From contig JAPOPM010000038.1 in NCBI GenBank assembly GCA_026712905.1, forward strand, positions 1 to 64,000: 64,000 nt of DNA. Reading direction: 5' to 3'. How positions within the stretch are numbered: the stretch's first letter is position 1; each line of letters opens with the position of its first letter. The translations under genes and the position numbers were made by a program. The notes below the pieces were generated by a model that was given only the letters and a program-made list of their open reading frames with translations, was not told where the DNA came from and ran no database searches. Source of the DNA: Deltaproteobacteria bacterium. GTDB lineage: Bacteria > Desulfobacterota > Binatia > UBA9968 > JAJDTQ01. Positions 16,318 through 60,691 of this stretch are shown in pieces.

Positions 16318-16336
16318 TGGCGCCAACGCCTGAATC

Positions 16337-16457
16337 GTCATTCCCGTGAAAGCGACTGCGTCAATGCTCCGGTCGGCCAGGAGACGGCACGGCCCTCCGG
16401 AAGGTCATTCCCGTGAAAGCGGCTGCGTCAATGCTCCGGTCGGCCAGGAGACGGCAC
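16337..16457. repeat. Two 54-base direct repeats, 67-base period
   Basis: Copies at 16337-16390 and 16404-16457 differ at one base. Each begins GTCATTCCCGTGAAAGCG, the same head as the palindromic repeats that follow, so this is a degenerate part of the interspersed family present at four places in the window. Confidence 0.85.
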
Positions 16458-16561
16458 ACGTCATTCCCGCGGAAGCGGGAATCCAGGGGCAGTGGAGGGG
16501 CACTACGGCGGCGTTTCCCCACCTCACCACCCCTGGATTCCCGCTTCCGCGGGAATGACGT
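16458..16561. repeat. 32-base perfect inverted repeat, interspersed family
   Basis: Arms 16458-16489 and 16530-16561 are exact reverse complements separated by 40 bases. Each arm contains a small internal palindrome (ATTCCCGC ... GCGGGAAT). The same 29-base core recurs at 17404-17432 and 60663-60691. The structure could fold into a long hairpin in RNA or be the two ends of a small non-autonomous element. Confidence 0.85.
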
Positions 16562-16574
16562 TCCATTACGTAGG

Positions 16575-16651
16575 TGCCTCATGAGTCTTGACACAGATGT
16601 TTCTCGGGAATGACGATTCGAGGGAGCTCTGCCTCATGAGTCTTGACACAG
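16575..16651. repeat. Two 22-base direct repeats
   Basis: Copies at 16575-16596 and 16630-16651 read TGCCTCATGAGTCTTGACAC plus AG. A related version is at 17448-17468 (TTGCCTCACGGGTCTTGACA), so the unit belongs to the same repeat family. The second copy covers the extended TTG start of the NUDIX frame. Confidence 0.8.
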
Positions 16652-16723
16652 CTCGCTGCGCGGAAACGATGTTCCAGGGCTCCGGTTGACAAGGCCAAAC
16701 ACCGCCCGCTACCGTCCCGTCCT

Positions 16724-17230
16724 GTGGATCCGGGCGATGAAATCATAGCCATCGTGGACGAGGACAACCGTGTCGTGGGGTCCGCGCCGCGGCGGGAGAT
16801 GCGCGCGCGGCGGCTGCCGCACCGGAGTACCTACATCCTGGTCTTCAACTCAGCCGGCGAAGTCTATGTGCAGAAACGCACCCTGACCAAGGACGTGTTC
16901 CCTGGATACTACGATCCCGCGGCCGGCGGCGTGGTGCTGGCGGGCGAGAGCTACCTCGATGGGGCGAAGCGCGAGCTCGAGGAAGAAATGGGCATCCGTG
17001 ACGTCCCGCTGGAGAGCCTGTTCGAGTTCTACCATGCCGACGACCACAGCCGTGTCTGGGGCGCGGCCTACCGTTGCGTCTACGACGGACCGGTGACCCT
17101 CCAGGAGGAAGAAGTAGAGAGCGGCTCGTTCATGCCCGTGGACGCGGTCTTCGAGGCCGCGGCGATCCAGCCCTTCACGCCGGACGGCCTGTACGTGCTG
17201 CGGCGCTACACGGAATCGGTCCGCGACTGA
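16724..17230 (+). CDS. NUDIX hydrolase, YfcD-like
   Basis: 168 residues from GTG 16724. The Nudix box is seen as GESYLDGAKRELEEEMG (G5xE7-REUxEE pattern) near residue 78, preceded by GYYDPAAGGVV. The start DEIIAIVDEDNRVVGSAPR is typical of the isopentenyl-diphosphate isomerase-like/YfcD group, which hydrolyse or rearrange diphosphate substrates. An in-frame TTG at 16643 would extend the protein by 27 residues, but that part is repeat-derived sequence and not conserved in kind. No good ribosome site is seen for either start, so the repeat insertion may have replaced the native leader. Confidence 0.8.
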   Translation: MDPGDEIIAIVDEDNRVVGSAPRREMRARRLPHRSTYILVFNSAGEVYVQKRTLTKDVFPGYYDPAAGGVVLAGESYLDGAKRELEEEMGIRDVPLESLFEFYHADDHSRVWGAAYRCVYDGPVTLQEEEVESGSFMPVDAVFEAAAIQPFTPDGLYVLRRYTESVRD

Positions 17231-17318
17231 CCTGATCCCCTCTCGGTCCCTGGATTCCCGCTTCCCAGGGTGTGTCAAAACTCCATTCGAACGAGAAATG
17301 GCAACGACATCCCATACC

Positions 17319-17368
17319 GTCATTCCCGCGAAAGCTTGCCCTCGACCCCGATCGGGGGCGGGAATCCA
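17319..17368. repeat. 50-base repeat identical (inverted) to 50634-50683
   Basis: This 50-base unit contains the palindrome CCCCGATCGGGG and ends in the family arms. It is an exact reverse complement of 50634-50683, more than 33 kb away. Part of the interspersed repeat patch 17250-17490 that fills most of the 413 bases between the NUDIX gene and tmk. Confidence 0.9.
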
Positions 17369-17403
17369 TGGGTTGGGAGGGGCCAAACGGGCGTGTTTCC
17401 CCG

Positions 17404-17486
17404 CCTGGATTCCCGCTTCCGCGGGAATGACGTTCCGTAGGGTCCTTGCCTCACGGGTCTTGACACAGCCTGTCTCGCGGGAATGA
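17404..17486. repeat. Interspersed palindromic repeat copy
   Basis: Positions 17404-17432 match the 29-base core at 16532-16560 exactly, followed by the TTGCCTCACGGGTCTTGACA module and a terminal CGCGGGAATGACG. The order core, spacer, TTGACACAG module, GGGAATGACG tail is the same as at 16532-16614, which defines the full unit as about 83 bases. Confidence 0.85.
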
Positions 17487-17579
17487 CGACTCCGGGCGTT
17501 GATGCCGGTTCTCATCCGACCGGAGTCTGTGACACGGCCTGATTTGCCGCTCTCTCGAAGAGATCTCCCTTGGCCGCCG

Positions 17580-50633: not shown

Positions 50634-50683
50634 TGGATTCCCGCCCCCGATCGGGGTCGAGGGCAAGCTTTCGCGGGAATGAC
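50634..50683. repeat. 50-base repeat, exact inverted copy of 17319-17368
   Basis: Lies between proS and the RND permease gene in a 203-base gap. It includes CCCCCGATCGGGG and ends in TTTCGCGGGAATGAC. The gap also shows the tail of the family unit (CCTTGCCTGG ... GACACAGCCTG at about 50694-50729). Nothing else is seen in 50562-50764. Confidence 0.9.
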
Positions 50684-50764
50684 GGTTCGTGAGGTCCTTG
50701 CCTGGCTGGTCCGGACACAGCCTGTTCCGCTGGGATAGCGGATCCTGGCCGGCGCTCCCTGGTC

Positions 50765-58798: not shown

Positions 58799-59155
58799 TT
58801 ACCGGGTGTTCGGCTTCGGACCGATCACCTTGCGGAGCTCGGCGGTCACCGCCATGTAGCTCATGTCTCCCGCGCCCTTGCGCGCGATCACCACGGTGTC
58901 CTGATCCGGGCGAAAGTTCTCTTGCCCGCGGCGGAAGAACTCGCGCAGCATGCGCTTCACGCGGTTGCGAACCACCGCGTTTCCCACCTTCGAGCTGACC
59001 GTGACCCCCAGCCGTTTGCCCAGATGGTCGTTGTCTCTACGGATGATGATGAAGTGCGGCGTGAAGAACTTCCGGCCCCTGCGACCCAGCAGCAGGAAGT
59101 CGGAACGTCTGGTCAGGCGGGCTTCCTTCGGGAAACTCTCCCGCACACGGGACAA
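58799..59155 (-). CDS. rnpA: Ribonuclease P protein component
   Basis: 118 residues. Starts with basic [15 protein letters not shown] and has the RNR motif [13 protein letters not shown] near 62. Binds the RNase P RNA and helps process tRNA 5' ends. Nine bases follow the rpmH stop. Confidence 0.95.
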
Positions 59156-59164
59156 CGGGCCGTC

Positions 59165-59326
59165 CTAGGAGCGAGGACCCTTGGGTGGGATGACGACGGT
59201 CAACCGCTTCCTTCCCTTGGCTCGCCGGCGCCTCAGGACATTCCGCCCGCCAGGGGTTTCCATTCGTGCAAAAAACCCGTGGGTTCTTTTGCGCCTCAGA
59301 TTGCTCGGTTGATACGTCCGTTTCAT
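59165..59326 (-). CDS. rpmH: Ribosomal protein L34
   Basis: 53 residues from ATG 59326, beginning [18 protein letters not shown], the strict start of L34. Somewhat longer than the usual 44-46 owing to a C-terminal tail ([10 protein letters not shown]). AAGGTG upstream is the ribosome site. First gene of the rpmH-rnpA-yidD-yidC-khpB cluster. Confidence 0.97.
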
Positions 59327-59445
59327 TTCCGCACCTTCATTCGTCAGTGTCCCTATTTCTGGCATACAGGGGTGGGCTTGTCAATTTGCCGCGGCCGGGA
59401 ACTCCACAACATGGAGCCCTGCGCGTCCCGGTACACCATCGCGTG

Positions 59446-59634
59446 CTAGTGTCCTGCGTCACAAATAGCTTGATGAATCCGCGGGTCCTTTTCGCCGTCG
59501 GCTGCGTTACGTCACCCCGGGCCTTGACCCGGGGTCTTCCTCGCGTGGTGCCCGCCACTGCTCGTCATCGCGCCTTGCCGACGACAAAAATGCCCTCGCG
59601 GATTCATCAAGCTATTTGTGACGCAGGACACTAG
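59446..59634. mobile_element. MITE-like element with long inverted repeats, TA target duplication
   Basis: Inverted arms 59446-59483 and 59597-59634 (38 bases) are exact reverse complements including the outer CTAG on both sides. Reading the target as CTAG with TA duplicated (59447-59448 and 59632-59633) gives a 183-bp element, 59449-59631, starting GTGTCCTGCGTCACAAAT. Removing it restores a single CTAG, as is known for IS630/Tc1-mariner insertions. Inner sequence continues the symmetry imperfectly and contains a central CCCCGGGCCTTGACCCGGGG palindrome. It encodes no protein. It ends at the gpsA stop codon. Nothing else is recognised in 59327-59445. Confidence 0.75.
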
Positions 59635-60626
59635 TCCGCTTCGGCCTTCTGGGTGCGCCGCATGAGGTCGCGGACGGCCTGCATGGGGTCCTTGTCCTCG
59701 TAGAGGACACCGTACATCTGCTCGACGATGGGCATCTCGACCCCGTGGCGTTGGGCCAGGAGGTGGACGGTGCGTGTGTTGCGCACGCCTTCGGCGACCA
59801 TGCGCGTCCCGGCGACGATGTCGGCGAGGCGCCGTCCCTGCCCGAGTTGGAAGCCGAGATTGCGGTTGCGGCTCAGATGGCCGGTGCAGGTGAGCACGAG
59901 GTCGCCCAGGCCGGGGAGGCCGGACAGGGTCATCGGGTCGGCGCCCATCTTCACGGCCAGGCGGGTCATTTCGGCGAGACCGCGGGTGATGAGCGCGGCC
60001 CGGGCGTTGTGCCCCAGCTCCAGGCCGTCGCTCACGCCGGCGGCGATGGCGATGACGTTCTTGATGACGCCGCCCAACTGGACTCCGACGACATCGGTGG
60101 ACGTGTACACGCGGCATTCAGGGGAGCCGACGCTTTGCTGCACCTTGCGCGCCACCGCGGGCTCGGCGCTGGCGGCGGTGACCGCGGCGGGCAGCCCCTG
60201 GGCCACTTCCAGGGCGAAGGTGGGCCCGGACAGGAAGGCGTGTCGACGGGAATTCCCCAGGACGTCCGCCAGTACGTCGCCCATGGTCATGAGGGTCGAC
60301 TCTTCGATGCCCTTGGAACCGCAGCACACGATGGTCTCGGTGGTCACGAACGCCGCCGCCCGCGTCATGACCTCGCGCAGGAAGTGCGACGGGGTCACGC
60401 ACAGAAGCAGTTCACGGCCGGATGCCGCGGTTTCGAGGGAACCGGTGACCTGGAGACGGTCGGGCAGCTTGACCGAAGGCAGGTAAGCGGCGTTCTCGCC
60501 AGTCTCCCGGATGCGCGCCAACGTCTCCGCGGAATGGCACCACAAGGAGACATCGTCGTGCTTCCTGCAGAGCAATACCGCCAAGGCCGTGCCCCAGCCG
60601 CCCGCGCCTATGATACCGATGGACAT
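59631..60626 (-). CDS. gpsA: Glycerol-3-phosphate dehydrogenase [NAD(P)+]
   Basis: 331 residues. Rossmann loop GAGGWGTALAVLL at 7-19, SGPTFALEVAQGLPAA near 139 and the catalytic-Lys region GGVIKNVIAIAAG near 182-194. Makes glycerol-3-phosphate for phospholipids. The stop codon TAG is made of the last base of the MITE plus the TA duplication. Oriented after gyrA, with a repeat in the gap. Confidence 0.95.
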   Translation of the reverse strand: MSIGIIGAGGWGTALAVLLCRKHDDVSLWCHSAETLARIRETGENAAYLPSVKLPDRLQVTGSLETAASGRELLLCVTPSHFLREVMTRAAAFVTTETIVCCGSKGIEESTLMTMGDVLADVLGNSRRHAFLSGPTFALEVAQGLPAAVTAASAEPAVARKVQQSVGSPECRVYTSTDVVGVQLGGVIKNVIAIAAGVSDGLELGHNARAALITRGLAEMTRLAVKMGADPMTLSGLPGLGDLVLTCTGHLSRNRNLGFQLGQGRRLADIVAGTRMVAEGVRNTRTVHLLAQRHGVEMPIVEQMYGVLYEDKDPMQAVRDLMRRTQKAEAD

Positions 60627-60662: not shown

Positions 60663-60691
60663 CCTGGATTCCCGCTTCCGCGGGAATGACG
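60663..60691. repeat. 29-base interspersed repeat core
   Basis: Exact copy of the core at 16532-16560 and 17404-17432, between gyrA and gpsA (gap 60627-60780). A diverged tail follows (TTGCCACAGCCGTGTTTCGC at about 60731-60750). Confidence 0.9.

Follow-up and report, generated by a model that had tools for sequence, protein, structure and literature searches.

A probable IS630-type MITE on the gpsA stop codon, with a constant core and changing ends

Introduction

Besides IS630 itself, IS870 and ISRm2011-2 are IS630-family transposons that target CTAG, and in IS870 the transposon's own gene takes its stop codon from the CTAG. MITEs are short, non-coding elements with terminal inverted repeats that occur in multiple dispersed copies; it is often, but not always, required that an autonomous transposon of the same genome has the same ends. 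The closest described MITE case to the element studied here is RUP of Streptococcus pneumoniae with IS630-Spn1: as described in PMC2229807, RUP is a 107-bp MITE located at TA, for which mobilization in trans by the transposase of IS630-Spn1, a transposon with similar ends, has been proposed. The present element differs from RUP in its CTAG target, its longer perfect arms and the occurrence of several end types on one core. A second likeness, by description alone, is to the Correia/NEMIS elements of Neisseria, which come in sizes of about 107 bp and, with a 50-bp internal insert, 155 bp, end in TA and form long stem-loops, and for which the account in PMC2229807 reports no CTAG rule. The CTAG target is common to the present element and to CTAG-targeting IS630 transposons such as IS630, for which 5'-CTAG-3' is given as the specific target (PMC6811581, citing Tenzen and Ohtsubo 1991), but those transposons encode a transposase, whereas the MITE does not.

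Here, we describe an element at the end of gpsA in the window, by which we mean the whole stretch of 64,000 nucleotides that was analyzed. The element sits on a CTAG stop codon, its assignment to the IS630-type MITEs is well supported, and in these respects it is ordinary in kind; the less ordinary feature is a concerted change of both ends around a constant core.

A palindromic element between rpmH and gpsA

The features of the locus are collected in Table 1. The flanking CTAGs occupy 59446–59449 on the left and 59631–59634 on the right, and the 183 bp between the two TAs (GTGTCC...GGACAC) span 59449–59631. Beyond the exact inverted ends, wider arms of 52 nt can be recognized with 88% identity. 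The near-perfect palindrome at 59446–59634 is not a product of chance. Folding of the element DNA gave z = −13.8 against dinucleotide shuffles, with 0 of 200 shuffles as good, and a 20-base end of the element has two matches in the window versus zero expected. The element has no coding capacity, the open reading frames that cross 59446–59634 being mechanical reading frames only, and with copy lengths of 165–189 bp and 38-base exact ends it has the short, non-coding, inverted-repeat architecture of a MITE. The original prediction had placed the element near the likely origin; in this connection, further open reading frames nearby were recognized by eye, and we take them to be yidC, rnpA, gyrA and gyrB.

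Table 1 Features of the element and its neighboring genes in the window.
Feature	Position	Strand	Remarks
MITE copy, 189 bp with the two flanking CTAGs counted (183 bp between TAs)	59446–59634	.	38-base exact inverted ends
Left TA, putative target duplication in CTAG (IS630-type TA duplication)	59447–59448	.	
Right TA, putative target duplication in CTAG	59632–59633	.	
A-type terminal inverted repeat on the left, with CTAG	59446–59483	+	18/22 positions as in IS630-type end
Right terminal inverted repeat, with CTAG	59597–59634	−	
Core common to all family end types, here with REP-like insert	59484–59596	.	Core 93% identical between subfamilies
24-nt palindrome, missing in 165-bp copies	59511–59534	+	Placing ambiguous by one base
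gpsA stop codon TAG, from right CTAG	59631–59633	−	
gpsA, NAD-dependent glycerol-3-phosphate dehydrogenase	59631–60626	−	Pfam NAD_Gly3P_dh N and C
rpmH, ribosomal protein L34, downstream gene; own stop also CTAG	59165–59323	−	Ribosomal_L34

The original prediction for this DNA was correct in the coordinates of the element, its 183-bp size, its 38-base exact inverted ends including CTAG and its location between rpmH and gpsA, both of which were confirmed by Pfam domains. It had also proposed that the element rebuilds the gpsA stop codon. The TAG, which is the complement of 59631–59633 within the right CTAG, is indeed intact, but nothing special rebuilds it; the stop is retained because ordinary target duplication leaves CTAG on both sides.

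Copies, flanks and empty sites

A search for other copies with the same ends, suggested by the original prediction, was positive. In the element's own genome, BLAST returned 72 matches to the element, and an ends-only search of the forward strand (CTAGTGT, followed by 121–181 bases and ACACTAG) identified 23 pair-ended copies, compared to one and one in the reversed-pattern control. All 23 measure 165 or 189 bp, with the common core recognizable by eye in the displayed portion of every copy, and the 12-base end CTAGTGTNNYGT occurs 120 times versus four times for the reversed pattern. Among 58 genomes searched, the element was found in all nine members of the genus and in none of the 49 others, giving the multiple dispersed copies expected of a MITE both within the own genome and across the genus. 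In the own-genome end-pair, flank, stop-codon and end/core counts reported below, duplicate loci were removed partly or wholly by flank. We also noticed very short palindromes of 46–60 bp with CTAGTGT-like ends and almost no core (L102, 1493–1538; L107, 7272–7317; L119, 1446–1505).

With 28 of 74 rows of the flank table left out as inner-register (GTGG/CCAC and similar) or duplicate rows, 34 copies were flanked by CTAG/CTAG and 12 had one or both sides altered, as expected for insertion at CTAG. TA stands on both sides of the element, and at a CTAG target a duplication of TA and one of CTAG give identical sequence. The title of Tenzen and Ohtsubo 1991 names TA in CTAG. Two aberrant-flank copies (TTAG/CTAG and CTAG/CTAC) fit TA duplication with a flank change, and point mutation explains them too.

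An empty CTAG in relatives, which the original prediction had put forward for comparison, was present at another locus and absent from gpsA. In all seven relatives with the locus, gpsA ends in TGA and the intergenic spacer is not alignable, giving no clean empty site, which is formally among the outcomes that the original prediction had named as refuting it; because of this, we infer rather than observe that a CTAG was present at gpsA before the insertion. At C77:84534–84698 of the own genome, the element ends at a gene stop, and G003 and G005, which are without the element there, keep CTAG at the same gene end. At the orthologous site, G001 and G004 read TGA, and G007 carries a shortened element with a different end type. 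A gene that, judging by eye, we take to be gcvT ends in the element's TAG in G001 and reads CGG TAA in the own genome, so that at some sites relatives show no CTAG. Elsewhere, the same gene-end CTAG holds elements with differing end types in two species, G000 and G008 (L071 and L016, around 1501), and in G008 the CTAG that follows bears another short palindrome. Inspection of sites 2896 and 7706 of L225 revealed no clear empty site. Separately, a truncated A-type end in G000 (contig C83; L054, 3858–3861) provides the stop codon of an open reading frame that presumably resembles egtB.

Stop codons and the supply of CTAG

A simple home-made gene caller, which overlooks small genes like rpmH, placed 18 of 38 copies on a stop codon, 20 between genes and none inside a called gene; an earlier scoring had placed 19 of 41 on stop codons. 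How unusual this is depends on the CTAG background. Relative to CTAGs near elements, which are stops in 18 of 154 cases but come from places rich in IS and element remnants, the 18 of 38 represent an excess (p = 4e-6). A second background, with a filter that is too strict, comprised four stops, 32 intergenic sites and two inside genes (p = 0.0008 versus intergenic). Under a looser filter, four of the window's nine other CTAGs are called stops, or five of nine with rpmH, and CTAGs in genus loci not chosen by the element amount to five stops, 48 intergenic sites and nine inside genes (5/62), the last set again coming from places rich in IS and element remnants. CTAG as such is depleted, with 105 seen, some of them in repeats, versus 810 expected from base composition in 246 kb.

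Most simply, the pattern reflects two things: the CTAGs that lie outside genes are often stop codons, and insertions within genes are lost. About half of the surviving copies are found exactly at gene ends because CTAG is rare here and often a stop (NNC TAG), and we claim no preference for stop codons beyond CTAG supply because five of the nine other window CTAGs are stops too. Alternatively, gene-end copies might have been kept for their hairpin, which, lying right behind the stop, would terminate transcription or shield the mRNA 3' end, a role put forward for REPs and for some MITEs. The strong hairpin is consistent with such a role, as are the 18 of 38 copies on stops, their absence from called genes and the p value relative to the 18/154 background. 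However, target supply alone may suffice, as the window's other CTAGs illustrate, the loci used for comparison abound in IS and element remnants, and promoter and terminator scans of 59100–60000 found no promoter-like or terminator-like site. We therefore regard retention for such a function as unlikely. The family offers a clean natural case in which target choice renders a transposon nearly harmless: CTAG is depleted and often a stop, and since target duplication preserves the stop codon, the gene product is unchanged and genes are kept intact.

IS630 transposons with matching ends

No IS630 transposase (PF13358, DDE_3) was found in the own genome or in the genus genomes G002, G003, G006 and G007; draft assemblies can lose such transposase repeats. 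PF13358 is present in four of the nine genus genomes, with eight hits in total, of which seven were inspected (three of four in G001, two in G004 and one each in G005 and G008). CTAG end pairs surround four of these seven, located in G005, G008 and G001 (two). The G005 transposon measures 1149 bp, has the ends CTAGTGTCCCGTCCC and CTAGTGTCCTGTCCC, and uses the right-hand TAG as the stop codon of its transposase. In G008, a 1133-bp transposon carries CTAGTGTTGCGTTT at both ends, which corresponds to the E-type MITE end at 21 of 26 positions after CTAG. The two G001 transposons with CTAG end pairs measure 1195 and 1236 bp, the latter with different inner ends. The three transposases tested scored 235–251 bits to NF033545 (transpos_IS630, NCBIfam; cut-off 100), and the sister genomes thus contain partners with the DDE_3 domain expected for IS630/Tc1-mariner. 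At one G008 locus (L194, 96–1389), a 165-bp MITE and a complete IS630 transposon stand side by side on one common CTAG. The left CTAG of this MITE closes an open frame.

Using an alignment of the three transposases, a genome-record scan, which may omit near records, yielded 80 related loci (L245–L324). End pairs were called from a TA at the edge and at least 15 of 23 matching bases, without a shuffle control; 59 loci gave a pair, and the 21 without one were dropped. Although only TA was demanded, 52 of the 59 have CTAG on both sides. In 49 of the 59, the transposase gene takes its stop codon from the right-hand TAG of the flanking CTAG, an IS870-like arrangement in which insertion at CTAG therefore completes the gene. 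When compared to 29 end sequences picked from the 59 pairs, each of the seven MITE end types agrees with IS630 ends at 17–19 of 22 positions, a value reached by 0 of 2000 shuffles per type.

An autonomous partner was also sought in the own genome, where 40 stretches around single ends and at other places, together with other loci, gave pairs only at 46–213 bp, plus one unrelated 1389-bp pair. In the complete G004, the list of ends contained no matching CTAGTGT end pair at IS spacing. Ends shared with an autonomous transposon were thus found at the genus level (G005, G008 and G001) and not in the same genome. For the original prediction, this means that the IS630 transposase with matching ends that it called for was recovered, with CTAGTGT ends, from sister genomes and not from the own genome, while its assignment to IS630/Tc1-mariner is supported by these genus transposons and the CTAG flanks.

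The sequence comparisons make it very probable that the element is a non-autonomous MITE of IS630/Tc1-mariner type, without a gene of its own, that targets CTAG and would be moved by an IS630 transposase made elsewhere. Such a transposase would bind the inverted ends of the MITE, excise it and insert it at the TA within a CTAG, which would leave CTAG on both sides of the inserted element. We infer mobilization in trans because the own genome yielded no IS630 transposase, and the 2-bp TA duplication and the history at gpsA have the same standing.

Written as CTAG TGTCC...GGACA CTAG, the sequence reads equally well as a 4-bp duplication produced by an IS5-, IS701- or IS481-type family with ends starting TGT, and a precedent exists in MITEPsy1 of Pseudomonas, which is marked 'IS5?' in PMC3189936 and duplicates CTAG or YTAA. 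Against such an origin, the complete transposons that carry these ends code for transposases of the IS630 family, rve-family transposase loci scanned as alternative partners gave no matching end pair, and none of the 12 aberrant-flank copies has the same altered 4-mer on both sides; we consider a family that duplicates four bases highly improbable. Some other type of hairpin, such as a regulatory RNA or simply an immobile palindrome, is suggested by structure alone and is scarcely credible given the many copies at unrelated sites, their CTAG flanks and constant length, and an Rfam scan that gave only a chance-level match (MIR856, 17.8 bits versus a cut-off of 297).

Constant core and changing ends

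Seven end types (n = 15, 7, 5, 5, 4, 2 and 1) emerged when 39 copies of the 165-bp form, taken from the own genome and relatives, were subjected to greedy clustering at 80%. Between end types, the ends are 61% and the cores 93% identical, versus 86% and 96% within end types; core constancy is partly a matter of selection here, as entry into the 39-copy set needed some core similarity, whereas the 23 ends-only copies were not so selected. Within single copies, the left end matches the right end at 92% on average, with a lowest value of 66%. Of positions 8–30, all but one show two to four different complementary pairs, with pairing retained in 31 to 39 of the 39 copies. Both arms have changed together around a core that stayed the same, as if the ends had been swapped to follow different transposases.

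From these patterns, we tentatively propose a modular MITE, a possible reading in which a constant core was re-fitted several times within one genus with new end pairs matching different CTAG-targeting IS630 transposons. If true, such a non-autonomous element would outlive the loss of any single partner transposase. The combination of a constant core with swapped arms also opens the question of how non-autonomous elements change partner. Among the literature matches listed for bacterial MITEs, IS630, CTAG, stop codons and exchanged ends, none describes an IS630 family in which a constant core is combined with swapped ends.

REP-like inserts in the core

The window copy equals a 165-bp copy with 24 additional base pairs, GTCACCCCGGGCCTTGACCCGGGG. 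Together with the preceding C, this insert starts with CGTC, as in CGTC-tagged REPs (class after PMC3733652). Other copies carry TGTAGGGGCGACCTGCGGTCGCCCC, located elsewhere in the core, and the two inserts look like CGTC- and GTAG-tagged REPs. Di Nocera and colleagues describe GTAG/CGTC REPs and also REPs within longer palindromes, such as the REP dimers within TATAGGA...TCCTATA palindromes of Anabaena variabilis (PMC3733652). The likeness lies in a REP-like palindrome within a larger palindrome; unlike in A. variabilis, the host palindrome here is an IS630-type MITE with CTAG ends. One Y1 transposase match was detected in the own genome. Elsewhere in the window, nine CGTCATTCCCG motifs occur in palindromic repeats (CGTC-type REPs) at 16336–17488, 50674–50684 and 60681–60691, where about one would be expected by chance.
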